DNA from: Dehalobacterium formicoaceticum
Lineage (GTDB): Bacteria; Bacillota; Dehalobacteriia; Dehalobacteriales; Dehalobacteriaceae
DNA: 64,000 nucleotides
Assembly (NCBI RefSeq): GCF_002224645.1
Contig: NZ_CP022121.1
Coordinates: 2,610,501-2,674,500 of the forward strand
Direction: 5' to 3'
Below, piece after piece: positions 10,728 to 38,372 of this stretch. Position numbers and translations under genes: made by a program. Numbering within the stretch: position 1 is the stretch's first letter; the number at the start of each line of letters is the position of its first letter. Below the pieces are notes generated by a model, which did no database searches, had not been told where the DNA came from, and saw nothing but the letters and a program-made list of their open reading frames with translations.

Positions 10728-11273
10728 ATGGAAAAAGAAAGGGCTAATATCTTTAAAGTAAACCAAGGGAAACGCAACAGAGGGTACAACAGACAAGCTG
10801 CCGTGGCATATGCCCATCGTTGGTGGAACAGTTATAATCCTGATTTTCGTTATTTCCCGGTGGATTGTACCAATTATGTTTCTCAGGTTCTCTATGCCGG
10901 GGGCCTGCCCATGCAATACACCGGAAAACAAGATGCGGGATGGTGGTACGCCGCTAACGGAGCAAGAGAGGATCAGTGGAGCTTCAGCTGGGCTGTGGCT
11001 CATAGCTTGCGCTGGTATTTGGCCTCCCAACAAGGCGTGCTCACAGCTAAGGTAGCCGCGGCAAATGAATTAAGGCCGGGAGATATCATCTGTTATGATT
11101 GGGATGGAGACGGAGTCTGGCAGCACAATACCGTGGTGGTGGGTTTTAATGGGGATGGGCGGCCTTTAGTCAATGCCCATACCAATAACAGTCAAAACCG
11201 TCTTTGGGATTATCGGAATTCTGTGGCTTGGACAGAGAAAACATCATATCTTTTTTGGAACATTATATATTAA
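10728..11273 (+). CDS. Amidase-domain (Amidase_6) protein
   Basis: A protein of about 181 residues matching the putative amidase domain found in sporulating Firmicutes, an NlpC/P60-like cysteine-peptidase fold. The motif VDCTNYVSQVLYAGG supplies the probable catalytic cysteine. A later WQHNTVVVGF supplies the histidine. Tryptophans are abundant, and no signal peptide is visible. I prefer ATG 10728 (ATG 10722 also possible) because the run AGGGGGAGG lies just upstream, although the frame is open from 10707. A strong terminator follows, so it is the last gene of its unit. Confidence 0.85.
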   Translation: MEKERANIFKVNQGKRNRGYNRQAAVAYAHRWWNSYNPDFRYFPVDCTNYVSQVLYAGGLPMQYTGKQDAGWWYAANGAREDQWSFSWAVAHSLRWYLASQQGVLTAKVAAANELRPGDIICYDWDGDGVWQHNTVVVGFNGDGRPLVNAHTNNSQNRLWDYRNSVAWTEKTSYLFWNIIY

Positions 11274-11312
11274 CAGGTGAAAGCTGTTTTTTTGCTATGA
11301 AAGTATAAGTTT

Positions 11313-11339
11313 AGGGAACCGGACAGGTTCCCTTTTTTT
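11313..11339 (+). terminator. Rho-independent terminator
   Basis: An 8-bp stem AGGGAACC/GGTTCCCT with a 5-base loop is followed by seven Ts. Confidence 0.92.
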
Positions 11340-11505
11340 GTACTATCAGCAAATATAAATTTAAAAAGGTTAGACCAATCATCAGTTCTCGATTAAATGC
11401 TAAAGGATGTAAATATAAGTGCACGAGAGGCATACTAAGACGGATTACAAGGAAGAATATAGTAATAGTGTTTTAACTTTTTGCATTTGATTCGAGGTGT
11501 GACCG

Positions 11506-12819: not shown

Positions 12820-13941
12820 TTGAAACGAAGTTTATTTAACATATTTATGATTATCGTCATGACCTTTGGAGTTGTTTCAGGAACTGCTTATGCAAGCCCG
12901 GAGGTAACGGCGAAATCAGCAATCTTAATTGATGCATCATCCGGCAGAATCCTCTTTGAAAAGAATGCCCATGAAAGGCTGCCCCAAGCCAGTACCACTA
13001 AAATAACCACTGCCCTTTTGGCTTTGGAAAATGCTGATTTGTCAAAACAGGTACAAGTACCGGCAGATTTTGTGAATCCCGGTGAATCCAATATTTACCT
13101 GGGGCCCGGTGAAGTCCATCCCATGGAAGATCTTCTTTACGCTCTGCTCTTAAAATCGGCTAATGATGCGGCAGAGGTCATCGCCATTGATATCGGCGGT
13201 TCCGTGGAGCAATTTGCTGAAATGATGAACAAACGGGTCAAAGAGATGGGTTTAAAAGATACCCATTATGTTAATCCCCATGGTTTAAATGATGAGAGAC
13301 ATTACACCTCAGCTTATGATTTGGCCATGATTGCCCGTGAAGCACTTAAAAATGAAAAATTCCGGGAGATTGTAAACACCAATAAATATGAGATTCCCTG
13401 GGAAGGAAACGAATATAATCGGGTTGCTTATAATACCAATCGCCTCCTCAAAACCTACGAAGGAGCAGACGGAGTGAAAACAGGTTTTACCCGACAAGCA
13501 GGAAGCTGTCTGGTAGGTTCTGCGACCCGCAATGGCATGCAATTAATTGCCGTGACCCTAAATTGCAATGGCATGTATCAGGAAATGACTGCCTTATTTG
13601 ATTACGGATTCCAAAACTATCAAAAGAAAGAGATTTTTGAAGAGAATCAGACAGCCGGGCAGATTCCTGTGAAAGGCGGCACCTCAAAAACGGTGCATGC
13701 AGTAGCAAAAGCACCCTTGGGAGTTGCTTTTAATATAAAAGATAAGGACCTCCTGGAACCAAGCATCTATCTGCCTGAGAAAATTAAAGCCCCAGTTAAA
13801 GAAGGGCAGCGCTTAGGATCGGCAGTAGTTAAAATTGATGAGAACACCTTTGTCACCACTGAGTTGGTTGCTGCCAATGATGTAGGGAAAAGCTCTTTTT
13901 TTGCTTATCTCTGGGATACCTTTATCAGCGCCATAATTTAG
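12820..13941 (+). CDS. D-alanyl-D-alanine carboxypeptidase, DacB/DacF type
   Basis: A penicillin-binding peptidase (S11) that trims peptidoglycan stem peptides. The N-terminus is a signal peptide with a likely cut after AYA (about residue 25). The catalytic triad motifs are present: STTK at residues 58-61, SAND near residue 115 and KTG near residue 214. A C-terminal beta domain and a hydrophobic anchor end the 373-residue protein. TTG 12820 is the start, with TAGGAGG 7 bases upstream. In Bacillus dacB is followed directly by spmA-spmB. Here those genes appear 3.3 kb later, so a sporulation (cortex) role is plausible. dacB versus dacF cannot be settled. Confidence 0.92.
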   Translation: MKRSLFNIFMIIVMTFGVVSGTAYASPEVTAKSAILIDASSGRILFEKNAHERLPQASTTKITTALLALENADLSKQVQVPADFVNPGESNIYLGPGEVHPMEDLLYALLLKSANDAAEVIAIDIGGSVEQFAEMMNKRVKEMGLKDTHYVNPHGLNDERHYTSAYDLAMIAREALKNEKFREIVNTNKYEIPWEGNEYNRVAYNTNRLLKTYEGADGVKTGFTRQAGSCLVGSATRNGMQLIAVTLNCNGMYQEMTALFDYGFQNYQKKEIFEENQTAGQIPVKGGTSKTVHAVAKAPLGVAFNIKDKDLLEPSIYLPEKIKAPVKEGQRLGSAVVKIDENTFVTTELVAANDVGKSSFFAYLWDTFISAII

Positions 13942-31480: not shown

Positions 31481-32996
31481 GGGAGTGTTTCATATTTCGT
31501 GTAATTGGCTATTCCCAACAAGGTTTAATACCTTGCAATAATGGGTAAAATTTTAGTACAGTCAGAAAGACAAGGCTCTGCCGGAGGGCAACCTGAGGGT
31601 CTGACTGGGGAACTCAAGCAATTGAAAAGGCGGTCTCAAATGGGGCTGCTTTTTCATTTTCTATTGCTTAGATTCCCAACCCGGAAAACTCCGGGAGTTC
31701 GGGGGCAGAGCCCCCGAGAAGTTATGCACCTTTGCTGTCCGTCAGACGTTCCTCAAAGAAGATAGACATCTGCCCCATTATTATTCCCCAATCGCGAATT
31801 GGTAAACTCCACTTTCTCTCAATTTCCATAATGGACAAGTAGATTGATTTTTTTAGTGATTCATCGCCGGGAAAGGTGGTTTTGGTTTTTGTAAATTTCC
31901 GTAACATCCGATGAAATCCTTCTACTGAATTTGTCGTGTAAATTAGCCTTCTAACATTCTCTGGATACTTGAAATATACCGAAAGCTCGCTCCAGTTATC
32001 TCGCCATGACTTTGCTATCTGTGGGTATTTTTTACTCCATTTCTCCCCAAATTCTTCAAGATGATAAAGTGCGTCATCCTCACATGGAGCCTGATAGATC
32101 ATTTTTAAATCCGCCATAATAGTTTTTAAATCTTTGTATGAAACATATTTTGTTGAGTTTCTGATTTGGTGGATGATGCAAAGCTGCTGCTCTGTTTTCG
32201 GGAAAACGCTGTTTATCGCTGTCGATAATCCGCTTAAATTGTCGTGGCATGCAATTAAAATGTCGTTTATGCCCCGATTTTTCATCTCATTGACTACAGT
32301 TGCCCAAAAGCTTGCACTTTCATTTTCGCTGATCCAAATACCTAATATCTCTTTTCTGCCTTCCATATTAATCCCTAATACTGTATAGGCACATTTGTTG
32401 ATGATCTTGGCATCCTTTCTCACTTTGAAGACTATTCCGTCAAAGAAGACTACAGGATATATGCTCTCCAATGGTCTTGATTGCCACTCCATTAGCTGCG
32501 GCATGATTTTGTCTGTAATTCGACTGATCAGAGCCGGTGATGCATCTACTCCATAGATATCACGCAGGTGGTCTTCTATATCACGGGTAGACATTCCTTT
32601 TTGATACATGGCTATCACTTGGTGCTCTAAATTATTTGATTTTGTTTGATATTTCTCAATCAATTGCGGTTCAAATTCACCATTTCGATCTCGTGGAACT
32701 TTTATTTCCGTCTTTCCCATTTGCGTTTGTAACGTTTTTTTGTTGTAGCCATTCCGGCTATTTCCGCTCAGATCCCCTGCTGGGCTATGCTTATCATATC
32801 CCAAATGCTCATCCATTTCTGCTTCCAGCATCTCTTCAATTGTTCCGCTGAACAGGTTTTTCAGCATGGAATGGATGTCCTCCATGCTACTGCATTCCTG
32901 TGCCAATAGTTTTACTAATTCATTTGCTCTTTCGTTCATTGATAACATCTCCTTTATGGTTATTGTTACCAATTACACGAAATTTTAAGCGTTCTC
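31481..32996 (-). mobile_element. IS256-family insertion sequence with target duplication
   Basis: The 1516-bp element is bounded by 28-bp imperfect terminal repeats (22/28 identical) that share ATTTCGTGTAATTGG exactly (31494-31508 and the complement at 32969-32983). The direct repeat TTTCCGTT occurs on both sides (31473-31480 and 32997-33004) as an 8-bp target duplication. It holds one transposase gene on the minus strand and about 210 bp of noncoding DNA with G/C-rich hairpins at the left end. The intact gene, matching ends and exact duplication point to a fairly recent insertion. Confidence 0.92.
31722..32939 (-). CDS. IS256-family (Mutator) transposase
   Basis: The 405-residue DDE transposase starts MNERANELVKLLAQ and has the Mutator layout: a Zn/DNA-binding N-terminal part with NSRNGYNKKTLQTQMG, and catalytic residues in VFFDGIVFKV (D), ACHDNLSGL (D) and TTNSVEGFHRMLRK (E). 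The frame looks intact. ATG 32939 has AAAGGAG 9 bases upstream; the in-frame ATG 32948 overlaps that site. Confidence 0.93.
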   Translation of the reverse strand: MNERANELVKLLAQECSSMEDIHSMLKNLFSGTIEEMLEAEMDEHLGYDKHSPAGDLSGNSRNGYNKKTLQTQMGKTEIKVPRDRNGEFEPQLIEKYQTKSNNLEHQVIAMYQKGMSTRDIEDHLRDIYGVDASPALISRITDKIMPQLMEWQSRPLESIYPVVFFDGIVFKVRKDAKIINKCAYTVLGINMEGRKEILGIWISENESASFWATVVNEMKNRGINDILIACHDNLSGLSTAINSVFPKTEQQLCIIHQIRNSTKYVSYKDLKTIMADLKMIYQAPCEDDALYHLEEFGEKWSKKYPQIAKSWRDNWSELSVYFKYPENVRRLIYTTNSVEGFHRMLRKFTKTKTTFPGDESLKKSIYLSIMEIERKWSLPIRDWGIIMGQMSIFFEERLTDSKGA

Positions 32997-33008: not shown

Positions 33009-33575
33009 TTACGCCATATTTAGTTTCCCTAATAAGAGCATACTGCCCATGGCTAAAAAGGATACAGAGATGCAAATTGAAATTTGATTAGCATCAAGAA
33101 CTAACATTACCAACAACATACAAAACTCTGCACCCAAGATGATCCTTGTTCGTTTTTTATATACTGCTCTCTCTATGTCGTCTAAGGGCTTGTTGCTATC
33201 CTCCAAGGGTGCCAAAATAAAGATTATTATTCCTGCAACAAATGCTAAACTAAAGCAAACTAAACTTGTCCATGAGATAAATTTAATTGCAAAAAGGACT
33301 GCAAAAATAAGTACTATGGAAAACAGATAGCATTGGATCTGAGTTTTGGCATGATAGCCTCCTGCATATGAGCGTAAGGGGAGATATGCCACAATAAAAA
33401 CAATGCTTTGCCAAACCATTCCGAAGATAAGCCCAATCATGAGAATTGTGATGACATTAGCTAACATAATCAGACCTTGTTCTAGACCATAGAAATATAA
33501 TTCTTTGTCATCTCTATTTATAATATTTACCTCAACAAGTTGATCTATGGCCTTGTTCAAAAAATTAGCCGACAT
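33009..33575 (-). CDS. agrB: AgrB-family peptide-processing membrane endopeptidase
   Basis: AgrB cleaves and cyclises the AgrD precursor to make an autoinducing peptide. The 188-residue protein has about five hydrophobic segments and the catalytic signature RSYAGGYHAKTQIQCYLFS, holding the essential His and Cys seven residues apart. Its ATG overlaps the stop of a 10-codon agrD remnant (TAATG), so it keeps the coupling of a normal agrD-agrB pair. The stop lies 5 bases beyond the target duplication of the IS256 element. It is the only full agrB here and would have to process the AgrD encoded 2.5 kb upstream. Confidence 0.92.
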   Translation of the reverse strand: MSANFLNKAIDQLVEVNIINRDDKELYFYGLEQGLIMLANVITILMIGLIFGMVWQSIVFIVAYLPLRSYAGGYHAKTQIQCYLFSIVLIFAVLFAIKFISWTSLVCFSLAFVAGIIIFILAPLEDSNKPLDDIERAVYKKRTRIILGAEFCMLLVMLVLDANQISICISVSFLAMGSMLLLGKLNMA

Positions 33576-33607
33576 TAAAATTTACGAAGGCTCTCCTTCA
33601 GAGCCAT
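33575..33607 (-). pseudogene. agrD remnant: 10-codon mini-ORF in front of agrB
   Basis: With a strong GGAAGGGGGG site, this frame reads MALKESLRKF then TAA. The first four residues match the start (MALK) and the last four the end (LRKF) of the intact AgrD at 36101-36250. The core with the cysteine ring is missing. The stop overlaps the agrB ATG. It is too short to make a signal but may still drive translation of agrB. Confidence 0.75.
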
Positions 33608-33653
33608 TACCCCCCTTCCAAAAATTTTTTTATTATTTTGACAAACCTATCCT

Positions 33654-33714
33654 ATCATAAAATAAGTTTTTGTACGGTAATTTGGTAAAATTGATATGTC
33701 TTTTTGGAAAAACT
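33654..33714 (-). promoter_or_regulatory. Promoter and LytTR-type operator of the agrB module
   Basis: On the minus strand two direct repeats, AGTTTTTCCA (33705-33714) and AATTTTACCA (33683-33692), are spaced 22 bp apart start to start. They are followed 24 bases later by a TATGAT -10 (33654-33659) with no good -35. This matches the operator before the intact agrD in sequence, period and distance. Confidence 0.72.
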
Positions 33715-33727
33715 TAAAAATAATTTT

Positions 33728-33758
33728 AAAAAAACCACGGTATGAAACCCGCGGCTTT
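33728..33758 (-). terminator. Terminator after the lipoprotein gene
   Basis: On the minus strand CCGCGG pairs with CCGTGG (one G-U pair) across an 8-base loop and is followed by seven Ts. Confidence 0.7.
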
Positions 33759-33920
33759 TGCTTAGTTAGAAATATAGGGCGTTCATATAATTTATAGTTC
33801 GTTAAATTAGCGCTTATATTTTACACTAACTCGGAAGTTTACACATAATCAAGGATAGACTCAGTCTGGAGCTCAGGGAAAATAAAATTTATAGGGCAGT
33901 TCCTTTGCCTTTCACATGTT

Positions 33921-35096
33921 TCATTCTACGGGTAAAATATGCAGATGTTGTTCGTGATTAATGCCAGCTTCACGTGTAATGTCATGTGTAATTACAGCCA
34001 AACGCTTACCATCGGGTGATAACGCTCCCGCGCTGAAGGATTCTCCATCCCTGTGGAAAACCATATCTTTCCGGGGGGACTCGCCATAAGATACTACGCC
34101 GGATACGCCGAAGGAATCTTCCTTGGATGGTTTTTTGCCCTCGGCAAAGACCCTGCCATCGCTTTCACCAATGATAAAAAGGCTGGGTGGTGTTTCATCC
34201 ACTGCCCATTCCATCAGTTCATAATTATCCTCCAGCACAGCCTGGGCATAACCGGAAGAGTGTAGTGCGGTGATCAATAGTTTGCTGGAAGGTGTAAAGG
34301 ATAAACTGAAAAATTCATGAATTTCAATATCTCTGTTACCCCTCAGTTCCTCCAGGGTTATCCTTTTACTCTCCCCGGAGGCAACATTATAAATCAGCAG
34401 ATGGTTATAATCGATCAGGTAGGCTAAAGTAGCACTGTCAAACGACCAATAACACTCCGTCGCCACAACGCCCCCGCCTACTACGATAAGCGAACGGTCT
34501 AATTCAATTACTTCCCCCGTTTTAAGATTATGCAATAATAACATCGCACCGTTCTGAAGATCATTCCCGGAATCCGGACCAAAGTTACCCACTTCAGCCA
34601 TGTAGGAGAGATCCGGAGAGAATACACGAAGATTATCATCCTCTTTTATAATCATATTTATTTTGGTCGGATCATCAAGATCAAAAGTAACGGCGCTTCC
34701 TTCGCCAAAGCCAATTACCTCCTCATTCCTGATGGGGATATACCGATTCCAATCCCAATGTGAACTAAAGGGATAATCACAAGGCAGCAAGGTCGCCTGC
34801 TGTTTATTGATATCATAGAGGTAAATATCCGTTTCACCCAGGTTTGACTGATGGGTTTCCAGGTTTATCTCTTCCTTTTTTTGACTGGCTAAAATCAAAG
34901 TATTCTCATCAAACCACAGACAGCCTTTGATAAAATTCCCTTCCCCCTCTTTAAAGAGAGGAGAAATATTCAACTCTACCAGTCCATCAACCTCTGAGAC
35001 GGGTGCGTCCACATCATTTGATGATTGGCAGCCAGACAACACTAGCATCAAAGCCAACATCCCTGCAAAAAAAGCAATAATACCTAGAGCTTTCAC
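33921..35096 (-). CDS. Lipoprotein with beta-propeller-like repeats
   Basis: The 391-residue exported lipoprotein has a signal peptide ending in the lipobox LSGC (Cys about residue 23). The body has recurring beta motifs such as WFDENTLILAS, DIYLYDINKQ, MLLLHNLKTGEV, LAYLIDYNHLLIYNVASGE and SPDGKRLAVITHD, resembling WD40/TolB-type propeller blades. I do not recognise a specific function. It starts at GTG 35096. It lies between the two agr modules and is a candidate target or passenger of the quorum-sensing system. Confidence 0.75.
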   Translation of the reverse strand: MKALGIIAFFAGMLALMLVLSGCQSSNDVDAPVSEVDGLVELNISPLFKEGEGNFIKGCLWFDENTLILASQKKEEINLETHQSNLGETDIYLYDINKQQATLLPCDYPFSSHWDWNRYIPIRNEEVIGFGEGSAVTFDLDDPTKINMIIKEDDNLRVFSPDLSYMAEVGNFGPDSGNDLQNGAMLLLHNLKTGEVIELDRSLIVVGGGVVATECYWSFDSATLAYLIDYNHLLIYNVASGESKRITLEELRGNRDIEIHEFFSLSFTPSSKLLITALHSSGYAQAVLEDNYELMEWAVDETPPSLFIIGESDGRVFAEGKKPSKEDSFGVSGVVSYGESPRKDMVFHRDGESFSAGALSPDGKRLAVITHDITREAGINHEQHLHILPVE

Positions 35097-35132
35097 TGAG
35101 ACACCACAACCCTTCCTTTACATAAATGTATA

Positions 35133-35532
35133 TTAATCAATATAAGTATACGGAGGGATACACTCCAGAACGATCTCTGGGTCTCGTCCAGTATGAATCT
35201 CAGTACAGTTTGCTCCTCTATCCGTACAAACTCCAAGATGGATATGGTATGCGTTGTAGATTACCGGATATGGGTGCATATACATTGCGTCCATTTGCCC
35301 CGGTATAATTAAGATCCACCCCTTCATGAGCCCAGTGAGGATAAGCAGCACTCTGATCTTCTCCAAATAAATGATAATCAAAATCCAGGTAGGTACTGCT
35401 GGTCAGATTAAATATATTAAAACCGGCTAGCTTAGACCGATAACAGGCAGTATTTATATTACTTTGAGTGAGTTGACTATCCTCATGAAAGCAGCCATCA
35501 CCATTATAGCCTGCGGTAGCTGTGATATGAGT
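35133..35532 (-). pseudogene. Broken C-terminal M23-type peptidase domain
   Basis: Directly after the TGA of the 35533-36024 gene, the same frame continues as THITATAGYNGDG, then HWAHEGVDLNY with the M23 metal motif HxGxD-like, then VYAPISG, before a TAG. From about 35290 a second frame continues plausibly (YHIHLGVCTDRGANC...EIHTGRDPE) to 35133. So one nonsense codon and one frameshift break what was probably a secreted M23 endopeptidase. The later catalytic HxH motif is not recognisable. Confidence 0.65.
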
Positions 35533-36024
35533 TCAGTTAACCAAATTAGAATGAGAATAGCCGCAAATGCTGCAATAAACCAATCCTCTTGCTAACCCCT
35601 GCTCAGAGAAATATCCTTCCGGGAACCTGTCCACATATTCATTAAAAGGTCTCGGAGCAACATGAGTATAATACATAAGTTTTTCATCGTCACCTAAACC
35701 CTCAGTCAATATATCATCAACTTTATCCAAGTCCATAGCGTATATTTCTTCTTCGGTGTAACCCTTGCCCAAAAGCCCGGTTACCTGATTTCTATGAAAG
35801 CCGGTTTTTTTTGCTATTTCCTGAACTTTTAACTCACCTTCATCAAAGTCATAGATGTTTACTCCTTCACTTTCTTTCATCATATCATCCATCAGTTTTT
35901 TGTTGATCTCTTTCTTTGTCAGCCCATCGAAACTGCCTCCAGCTAATACGGATGTTGCTCCAAGCAACAAGCAAATAGTTAACATGATACTAACATACCC
36001 TGTAAACTTTGTTATCTTTTTCAT
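35533..36024 (-). CDS. Secreted protein, N-terminal part of a broken M23-peptidase gene
   Basis: The 163-residue product has a signal peptide (YVSIMLTICLLLGATSVLA-G) and a charged helical region with EIAKKTGFHRNQVTGLLGKGY. The C-terminus is cysteine-containing (VYCSICGYSHSNLVN) and runs into TGA 35533-35535. The frame beyond the TGA encodes M23-like sequence, so the gene was probably longer. The first part may still be made and exported. It occupies the place where agrB would follow agrD. Confidence 0.65.
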   Translation of the reverse strand: MKKITKFTGYVSIMLTICLLLGATSVLAGGSFDGLTKKEINKKLMDDMMKESEGVNIYDFDEGELKVQEIAKKTGFHRNQVTGLLGKGYTEEEIYAMDLDKVDDILTEGLGDDEKLMYYTHVAPRPFNEYVDRFPEGYFSEQGLARGLVYCSICGYSHSNLVN

Positions 36025-36065
36025 TATTATATCATCCTTTCACTTTTTTTATTTTGCTTCAAAAA

Positions 36066-36101
36066 CTATTCCCTTCTCTTGACCAAAAAATTAGCTACCA
36101 C
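36066..36101 (-). pseudogene. agrB remnant (11 codons) after the intact agrD
   Basis: A GTG overlapping the agrD stop (TAGTG) reads VVANFLVKRRE then TAG. It aligns with the start of the full AgrB, MSANFLNKA, and the nucleotide context after the stop is also alike. The rest of agrB is missing, replaced by the secreted-protein gene. Confidence 0.65.
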
Positions 36102-36250
36102 TAAAATTTTCGAAGCTTATTCATATCTTTTGGCGGTTTGGGTTGATGAATAAAGCAGATGCAAGTTGTGTTGGCATTCATTGATGTTACCAGTAAAGCT
36201 AGACTCGCGACTACCCCGCCGAATCTCATAAGAAGATTCTTCAAAGCCAT
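36101..36250 (-). CDS. agrD: AgrD-like cyclic lactone autoinducer peptide precursor
   Basis: A 49-codon gene with GAAAGGAGG just before ATG. The N-terminal part is an amphipathic/hydrophobic leader (MALKNLLMRFGGVVASLALL). The core is NTTCICFI, followed by the recognition tail HQPKPPKDMNKLRKF. The layout matches clostridial AgrD (C. perfringens core ACLWFT followed by HQPEEPK). The predicted signal is a thiolactone ring C-I-C-F-I with a short tail (NTT or shorter); ring limits are by analogy. It follows the LytTR/GHKL pair by about 100 bases, in the same direction. Only remnants of agrB follow, so AgrB must come from 33009-33575. Confidence 0.85.
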   Translation of the reverse strand: MALKNLLMRFGGVVASLALLVTSMNANTTCICFIHQPKPPKDMNKLRKF

Positions 36251-36292
36251 TACCTCCTTTCAACACATGATTGCTTTTGGCAATCTAAATCT

Positions 36293-36353
36293 ATCATAAA
36301 AATTGCCTTTGTGCAGAAAGGTGGTAAAACTAATATATTTTTTTGGTAAAACT
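36293..36353 (-). promoter_or_regulatory. Promoter and LytTR-type operator of agrD
   Basis: On the minus strand AGTTTTACCA occurs twice, at 36344-36353 and 36322-36331, exactly 22 bp apart. A -10 TATGAT (36293-36298) follows 24 bases after the second repeat, with no -35 consensus. Two helical turns between direct repeats is typical of LytTR-domain regulators such as AgrA and ComE. The distal repeat touches the sensor-kinase stop codon. Confidence 0.78.
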
Positions 36354-37657
36354 TAAACTTTTTCTTCCGCACTAAAATTACGGTTATAGATTAGCACATC
36401 AACACGAAAAGTATTGTCCGTATGCTTGATATTCATAGTACCGTTATATTTTTCAATAGCCTTCTTCACGCTTTCTAACCCAAAACCATGATTTTCTGCA
36501 TCTCTATGAGTAGTTTTCAATTTATTAAATCCATAATGTAATTTCTCTTGAAAAGGATTCGTTATATTAACATAAAGTACGTTTCTGTTTAATTCAACAA
36601 AAATCCCTATCCTTTTTTCTCCTGTGTATATAGATGTTGCTTCTATTGCATTATCAAGTAGGTTTCCTAAAATAGCTACCAAATCAAATGATTGAATACT
36701 CAGTTTTTCAGGAATTTTTAAATTTACTATTACATCTATGTCTTTTCTTTTTGCCTCGTATATTTTATAGTTTAGAATACTATCGACTTCCGCATTACCG
36801 GATTTAACGTATTCGTTGACATTGTTTATAAGATTAAAAGCATTTTGAAGATACTGCAATGACAAATCATTATTACCTTTTTCAATTAAAGTTTGTAATG
36901 CCAACATATGTTTTTTAATATCATGACGGAGTATCTTAATATTCTTAAGTGATTGATTTATGATTTTTAGCTGCTTAATATAGGCATTATTTTGTTGTCT
37001 CAATAGATTTTTCTCAGTTTTTTCCTGATAAGACTGTAGCAGAATATCATATAAATAAAAAACAAATACATTTATTATAAATAATATTGCAATACTAATG
37101 AAAATTTGAGGAAAATTTTCAGGATTGCTTTCTTTCATTAATATAAAAGTAGAAAATAGCGTTCCAAGCGGAATAATAAAAACTGCAATCCAATGCAATA
37201 ATGGGATATGGTATTCCGCTTTAATCATTTTAAGGTTTGAAATTACTAGAACAACAATGTAAGATAAAATCTTACTAATTATTTGAGCAAGAATTAATTG
37301 TAAATCAACACCTTTAATAAGTGCGTTCAAATTTAGTATGTTCAATATGATTATAGTAATTGTTTCAACAGAAATTAATATTGCATAAACATAAACAACC
37401 GCGGTCAATTTCATCTTCCAATTAGAGTAATAATTTAGCGTTAGCAGAAAAAACATGATTAAGTTACAGATGAGATTAACAATAGGGGTATTATGGGATA
37501 TATATATTATCCCAATCGCCAAAAAATAGAGTATGTATGATATCAATTCCACTTTTTTGTTTTTTGAACGTCGTTCAAAAAAAATATACATAAATCTATA
37601 AATGATATAGGTCCCAAAAATATTGGATAAAAAATAAATGATGTCATAATTATCCAT
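36353..37657 (-). CDS. AgrC-like GHKL sensor histidine kinase
   Basis: The ~434-residue kinase has six or seven N-terminal membrane segments (residues ~5-210). A coiled-coil region, the phospho-acceptor box LRHDIKKHMLAL and the HATPase N-box NLLDNAIEA follow. The C-terminus has the G-box-like HGFGLESVKKAIEKY. This is the AgrC/GHKL type that detects peptide pheromones. ATG 37657 is chosen, with GGAGG and AAAGG just upstream; it overlaps the regulator gene by 8 bases. A+T content is visibly higher than in the flanking core genes. Confidence 0.88.
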   Translation of the reverse strand: MDNYDIIYFLSNIFGTYIIYRFMYIFFERRSKNKKVELISYILYFLAIGIIYISHNTPIVNLICNLIMFFLLTLNYYSNWKMKLTAVVYVYAILISVETITIIILNILNLNALIKGVDLQLILAQIISKILSYIVVLVISNLKMIKAEYHIPLLHWIAVFIIPLGTLFSTFILMKESNPENFPQIFISIAILFIINVFVFYLYDILLQSYQEKTEKNLLRQQNNAYIKQLKIINQSLKNIKILRHDIKKHMLALQTLIEKGNNDLSLQYLQNAFNLINNVNEYVKSGNAEVDSILNYKIYEAKRKDIDVIVNLKIPEKLSIQSFDLVAILGNLLDNAIEATSIYTGEKRIGIFVELNRNVLYVNITNPFQEKLHYGFNKLKTTHRDAENHGFGLESVKKAIEKYNGTMNIKHTDNTFRVDVLIYNRNFSAEEKV

Positions 37658-38372
37658 TTCCTTTATCCTCCTGCCAGCGTTGCAATAGTCTGTCACTTAC
37701 TGATTTTCTATGCTGCTGGCTAATTGATAACACTGTATAATCAGATAATTTTACATTTTCATATTGATATTTAATCACATGGAAATAATTTACTAAATAA
37801 GATTTGTGAATTTGTATGAAGTCTTTGTTAATGAGCTGTCGTTCAATAACCGAAAGCTTTCCATAAAATTCATGAACTACGTCTTGGGTAAATATCTTTA
37901 CTTTTTTGCCGGAACTTTCGAAATATAAAATATCCTTTAAAGGTATTTTAGTTTGTGTGCGGCCAATTTTATATTCAAAAAAATGATTGCTTTTTGCCGC
38001 TAACTCAATAACTTTTTTTATGACTTTTTCTATTTCCTCTTCTTTAAGCGGCTTAATTAAAAAATTCAAAGGTCTTGTTTCAAAAAGCTCCATAGCATAA
38101 CTGTCTTTACAAGAAATAAATACAATTTGTGTATTTTCATTATGCATCTCATCCCTAATTTTTTTCCCTACCTCTACGCCATTTAGGATCTGAAGTTCAA
38201 TATCTAAAAAGATAAGATCAAAATATACTCCATTTGATATATATTGGAGTAGTGATTCCCCTGAATAAAATATTTCGATTTCCATTTTTCCTGTGCTGGG
38301 CTTGGACAATATATTTTCAATTTGAGAGCAAATTGTGTTATCGTCATCGCAAATAGCAACACGCAACATCAT
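37650..38372 (-). CDS. LytTR-family response regulator (AgrA-like)
   Basis: The 240-residue regulator has a receiver domain (VAICDDD, phospho-acceptor Asp57 in LIFLDIEL, and K in the LIKPL motif) followed by a LytTR DNA-binding domain (residues ~135-235: ILYFESSGKKVKIF ... FIQIHKSYLVNYFHV). It forms an AgrA/AgrC-type pair with the kinase immediately downstream and probably binds the paired repeats before both agr modules. A dyad ATATCC...GGATAT (38403-38421) lies between its -10 (38427-38432) and its ATG. Confidence 0.9.
   Translation of the reverse strand: MMLRVAICDDDNTICSQIENILSKPSTGKMEIEIFYSGESLLQYISNGVYFDLIFLDIELQILNGVEVGKKIRDEMHNENTQIVFISCKDSYAMELFETRPLNFLIKPLKEEEIEKVIKKVIELAAKSNHFFEYKIGRTQTKIPLKDILYFESSGKKVKIFTQDVVHEFYGKLSVIERQLINKDFIQIHKSYLVNYFHVIKYQYENVKLSDYTVLSISQQHRKSVSDRLLQRWQEDKGNG

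Follow-up and report, generated by a model that had tools for sequence, protein, structure and literature searches.

Organization of the locus

The genome is a single contig of 3,766,545 bases, and the stretch analysed here, referred to as the window, covers 64,000 nucleotides of it. On the minus strand of the window, agrA and agrC genes are followed by an operator-promoter region, a full agrD (agrD1), an agrB stub (agrB1), an exported-protein gene and a lipoprotein gene, and then by a terminator-like hairpin, a second operator-promoter region, an agrD remnant (agrD2) and a full agrB (agrB2) (Table 1). All coordinates in the first-pass annotation of this DNA agreed with the sequence. The agrC stop codon adjoins operator 1. 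Because agrD1 and agrB2 are separated by 2.5 kb and the terminator-like hairpin, they do not form a contiguous agrD-agrB pair within one operon; such contiguity is a usual feature of agr systems, rather than a mechanistic one. No known RNA families were found between 31 and 39 kb of the window.

Table 1. Features of the divided agr locus, in window coordinates.
Feature	Position	Strand	Evidence and remarks
agrA, response regulator with LytTR DNA-binding domain	37650..38372	-	Response_reg 58.5 bits, LytTR 58.7 bits
agrC, GHKL-type sensor histidine kinase	36353..37672	-	HATPase_c_5 78.3 bits; H-box LRHDIKKH
Operator 1, VirR/LytTR type	36322..36353	-	two perfect direct repeats AGTTTTACCA, period 22
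Promoter 1 -10, TAGATT	36288..36293	-	28 bp past operator 1, as in relatives
agrD1, full signal-peptide precursor, 49 aa	36101..36250	-	TIGR04223
agrB1 stub, 11 codons	36066..36101	-	matches agrB2 up to codon 8
Exported-protein gene, probably broken	35533..36024	-	TGA, open frame continuing to 35218
Lipoprotein gene, 391 aa	33921..35096	-	lipobox LSGC
Terminator-like hairpin and T run	33730..33759	-	11 bp stem, -15.8 kcal/mol; a short way upstream of operator 2
Operator 2, period 22	33683..33714	-	direct repeats AGTTTTTCCA / AATTTTACCA
Promoter 2 -10, TAGGAT	33649..33654	-	28 bp past operator 2
agrD2 remnant, MALKESLRKF, 10 codons	33575..33607	-	39 codons deleted in frame
agrB2, full AgrB processing protease, 188 aa	33009..33575	-	PF04647 148.7 bits

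A secreted-protein gene and a lipoprotein gene had been described as filling the space between the two agr halves. The lipoprotein gene stands; no family matched it, and its relatives were sought in its own genome. The secreted-protein gene does not stand as described. It consists of 163 codons, a TGA and then about 100 open codons (35218-36024 in all, minus strand), and is probably a pseudogene. It gave no Pfam or PDB match and had no relatives in 61 genomes, and the exported proteins that adjoin agr loci showed no homology to one another past their signal peptides. Beyond the TGA, one stretch (HEGVDLNYTGANGRNVYAPISG) resembles peptidase M23 by eye. An IS256-type transposase element (31600-32996, minus strand) lies 13 bp past the agrB2 stop codon. 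A copy at genome position 2391582 matches this element over 1,397 bp with 100% identity, and the element is therefore recent.

Two homologous copies with complementary losses

The first-pass annotation proposed that the locus holds two copies of an operator-promoter-agrD-agrB module with complementary losses, copy 1 keeping a full agrD and an agrB stub and copy 2 the reverse. Our analysis bears this out. Local alignment of the whole modules scored 82.5, compared to 49.5 for the highest of 500 dinucleotide shuffles. The operator-promoter block alone, without ribosome site or start codon, scored 64.5, with shuffles reaching at most 43.5, and the block that runs from the 3' end of agrD into the 5' end of agrB scored 41.0, with shuffles reaching at most 31.0. 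The duplication had been set in advance to stand or fall on alignment outside the ribosome sites, and none of 1,000 shuffles reached the score of either block. The two blocks are collinear between the copies. A genome-wide blastn search recovered these two copies (72% identity over ~119 bp, E 5e-11, and 82% over 38 bp) and no third. With deletions excluded, the copies are ~75% identical (93/124), which indicates that the duplication is old, in line with the initial view that it was not recent.

The junctions of the lost segments can still be read. The agrB1 stub (GTG GTA GCT AAT TTT TTG GTC AAG AGA AGG GAA TAG) shows homology to agrB2 as far as roughly codon 8 (ANFL.K), beyond which the stub has sequence of its own and a stop. 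The agrD2 remnant consists of codons 1-4 of agrD joined to its tail (LRKF-stop). The stop/start overlaps noted earlier are present in both copies, as TAGTG in copy 1 and as TAATG between the agrD2 remnant and agrB2. Two further candidate remnants were rejected: an agrB1 3' end behind the stub (score 17.5, matched by 272 of 1,000 shuffles) and a piece of agrC upstream of operator 2 (score 21.5, matched by 172 of 1,000).

Relatives with an unsplit module

AgrB2 matches PF04647 at 148.7 bits, and in the AgrB alignment it carries the invariant H75 and C82 among 12 invariant columns. The unsplit agrD-agrB arrangement that the first pass had suggested seeking in related genomes is present at eight loci, all with the order agrA-agrC-agrD-agrB. 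At six of these, which lie on genome contigs (L048-L053), agrC is followed by agrD and then agrB in every case, with a TAATG or TGATG overlap between agrD and agrB in four and a few bases between them in L051 and L052. In the other two, L025 (genome G008, same class) and L066 (genome G250, same phylum), agrB lies directly behind agrD. A tree of 31 AgrB proteins placed the eight unsplit relatives, the window and genome G331 in one clade of agrD-before-agrB (D-to-B) systems with 98/97 support, within which the window pairs with G250 (95/81). The G250 operator (AGTTTTACCA-12-AGTTTTACCC) is nearly that of the window, as is its AgrD core (NSTCICLIHQP compared to NTTCICFIHQP).

Because the unsplit relatives share the AgrB clade, and the G250 operator and AgrD core nearly match those of the window, comparison of these sequences points clearly to the unsplit module as the ancestral state. 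The eight clostridial agrACDB loci also have in common with the window an AgrD that ends in KLRKF or similar, and most have a similar operator geometry. Within the stretch examined, none of them showed an additional operator, a remnant of agrD or a stub of agrB. Together, the two homologous blocks and the unsplit relatives support duplication followed by complementary loss of agrD and agrB.

D-to-B systems have a patchy distribution in the phylum, where 5 of 399 genomes carry one, and no family member of the source organism carries the locus. Viral, phage and plasmid collections held only distant AgrBs (24-40% identity), and none of four plasmid agr loci inspected had the D-to-B order.

The signal precursor and translation of agrB2

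AgrD1 scored 45 bits against TIGR04223 (E 8e-12; cut-off 19), and its core (NTTCICFIHQPKPP...KLRKF) aligns with nine relatives. It has an amphipathic leader, a Cys-containing core (CICFI) and a proline-containing tail (HQPKPP), as expected of a signal precursor, and at its extreme C-terminus it ends, like the AgrDs of the relatives, in a basic stretch (KLRKF). The genome encodes three other intact AgrBs, all of the B-to-D type and outside the D-to-B clade, each adjoining its own AgrD, which is unlike AgrD1. Given these differences in clade and in adjoining AgrDs, AgrB2 is the expected processor of AgrD1 and, judged by phylogeny, the only matched one in the genome.

The AAGGAG upstream of agrB2 lies ~17 nt from the start codon, too distant by usual spacing, and is partly within a small hairpin; the well-placed ribosome site is that of the agrD2 remnant. 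agrB2 would thus be translated by coupling through the overlap with the agrD2 mini-ORF. The proposed coupling would explain why a 10-codon relic persists with start, frame and stop intact in front of a gene lacking a suitably spaced ribosome site.

Operators and promoters

Operators of the LytTR/VirR type carry the consensus AGTTNTNC in each repeat. It occurs in both repeats of copy 1 and in one of the two repeats of copy 2, and operator 1 is the sole AGTTNTNC pair with a period of 20-22 in the window. Both operators consist of period-22 direct repeats directly upstream of the promoter, within the LytTR/VirR geometry (period 21-22), and the distance from operator to -10 is 28 bp in both copies and four relatives, and 29 in a fifth. 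No third operator was found in the genome with a search pattern derived from these two sites, which is informative for uniqueness only.

The claim that the two promoters are identically regulated was not supported: the operators are alike but not identical. The second half-site of operator 2 reads AATTTTAC rather than AGTTTTAC, having lost a G that is conserved in copy 1 and G250; several relatives also have no G in their operator repeats. Paired direct repeats close upstream of the promoter are likewise found in the VirR/RgaR-type operators (PMC2838878, PMC10602386); copy 1 has AGTTNTNC twice, whereas the predicted operator of copy 2 deviates in one half-site. C. perfringens requires both VirR boxes (PMC2838878), and in C. 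difficile a change of the G in both repeats lowered RgaR-dependent expression ~5-fold (PMC10602386). By analogy with these findings, the loss of the half-site G suggests that promoter 2 may be weaker or less inducible.

A probable quorum circuit on two promoters

We consider it likely that the locus encodes a single agrACDB-type quorum circuit in which duplication and complementary decay have left signal and processor on two promoters. The agrD-agrB half, with its operator and promoter, would have been duplicated long ago and each copy would then have lost what the other kept. Copy 1 would supply AgrD, cotranscribed with the genes behind it, and copy 2 would supply AgrB from a second transcript beginning past the terminator-like hairpin. 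AgrB2 would cleave AgrD1, the cyclic peptide would be exported and sensed by AgrC, and phosphorylated AgrA would activate promoters 1 and 2. The domains of AgrA, AgrC, AgrD1 and AgrB2 are intact, and AgrC and AgrA are adjacent in the gene order A-C-D. That AgrD1 and AgrB2 form one working system, as the first-pass annotation had it, is plausible because none of the catalytic or phosphotransfer motifs is disrupted and AgrB2 is the genome's only AgrB of the D-to-B clade. The in-frame deletion in agrD2, with start, stop and overlap kept, also counts in favour of this circuit. Against it we counted the G lost from operator 2, the one-in-three chance that a deletion falls in frame by itself, and the broken exported-protein gene, which raises the possibility that the locus is decaying.

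Decay of the whole system, with both copies as relics and agrD1 and agrB2 as mere survivors so far, would account for the interrupted exported-protein gene, the degraded operator 2 and the arrival of the IS256-type element beside agrB2. However, the copies have diverged by ~25%, yet the frames of agrA, agrC, agrD1 and agrB2 and their active-site and domain motifs are intact, and a single-copy gene would more often have been hit by now; we therefore regard decay as unlikely. That both genes are expressed but respond to different signals, with agrB2 low and constitutive and agrD1 alone autoinduced, seems possible without being the favoured reading. The missing G in operator 2 and the C. difficile mutation results speak for such a difference, but operator 2 has kept the exact spacing and -10 position, and repeats without the G occur in several relatives.

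The second module could also have been acquired from a related bacterium instead of arising by duplication within this genome. The patchy distribution of D-to-B systems and the absence of the locus from family members suggest transfer. On the other hand, both copies sit in one locus behind one agrAC, and they resemble each other (93/124) about as closely as either resembles its best relative (90/117), a likeness that makes the data weakly decisive between the two origins; acquisition appears somewhat doubtful to us. Least probable by far is that AgrD1 is processed by another AgrB and that agrB2 has some other role: three more intact AgrBs are available in the genome, but all lie outside the D-to-B clade and beside different AgrDs of their own.

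Comparison with known agr systems

The agr2 locus of Clostridioides difficile R20291 is an agrACDB cluster reported to form a single transcript (PMC3754575). Like the window, it has the A-C-D-B order, a LytTR regulator and a short AgrD before AgrB. There D and B are adjacent, whereas in the window 2.5 kb separates them, and each gene is preceded by a separate copy of the operator and accompanied by complementary remnants. The system in the window is made of agr parts and, by analogy, would be expected to work in an agr-like manner. What sets it apart is that precursor and protease are separated while the relics of both remain legible. Our literature search, with coverage mostly outside subscription journals, found no published case in which agrD and agrB occupy separate units. 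The locus is a clear example from nature of duplication, degeneration and complementation within a single operon, and both relics can still be read. It makes two questions testable: whether an agr circuit needs precursor and protease to be produced jointly, and whether starting translation of the next gene is the sole reason for which a ten-codon relic persists.

A second split in genome G331

Splitting of agrD from agrB is not unique to the window, since it has also occurred, by a different route, in G331, a single-contig genome of the same phylum. At its agr locus (L065), an agrB of the D-to-B clade lies directly after agrC with no agrD between them. One agrD (MKKLLIRIGTSLASLALMVTALNVNTACMLFVHQPKLPDNAGKLRKF) is divergent in orientation and ~2.3 kb away, with an exported-protein gene ~60 bp further on; a second agrD has a damaged start and another exported-protein gene behind it. 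The two agrD copies (L065:9442-9585 and 11072-11203, plus strand) diverge from agrA-agrC-agrB. As in the window, agrD and agrB are in separate transcription units and an exported-protein gene directly follows agrD. Unlike the window, G331 has no duplicated operator or mini-ORF, and its agrD is in two divergent copies. The agrC frame of G331 is broken, which may reflect either a sequencing error or decay. This AgrB type was absent from the 21 other genomes searched in the order of G331, and no further splits of this kind were found there.

It is rather unlikely, though worth stating, that separation of signal and processor has been repeated and selected in this agr clade, with the window and G331 as independent cases. 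If so, agrD would join the transcript of an exported protein, AgrB dosage would be freed from signal dosage, and the 10-codon agrD relic would be kept to start the translation of agrB.

Other AgrB loci

An AgrB gene on a Eubacterium eligens plasmid (L077:3498-4061, plus strand) has ABC-transporter genes and LytTR/kinase genes as neighbours, and its vicinity shows neither an annotated nor an obvious AgrD. The genome of the window contains a second agrB duplication (L036:3555-4187 and 10840-11472, plus strand), in which the two AgrBs are nearly identical and have an IS66-type unit and ABC genes between them. L036 (~13156-13290, plus strand) and L074 (4694-4831, plus strand) encode AgrD-like peptides whose ring position holds Ser instead of Cys (TNSTWFLYEPDVP; SATSMWIFYEPDIP), and this residue suggests lactone, rather than thiolactone, signals.
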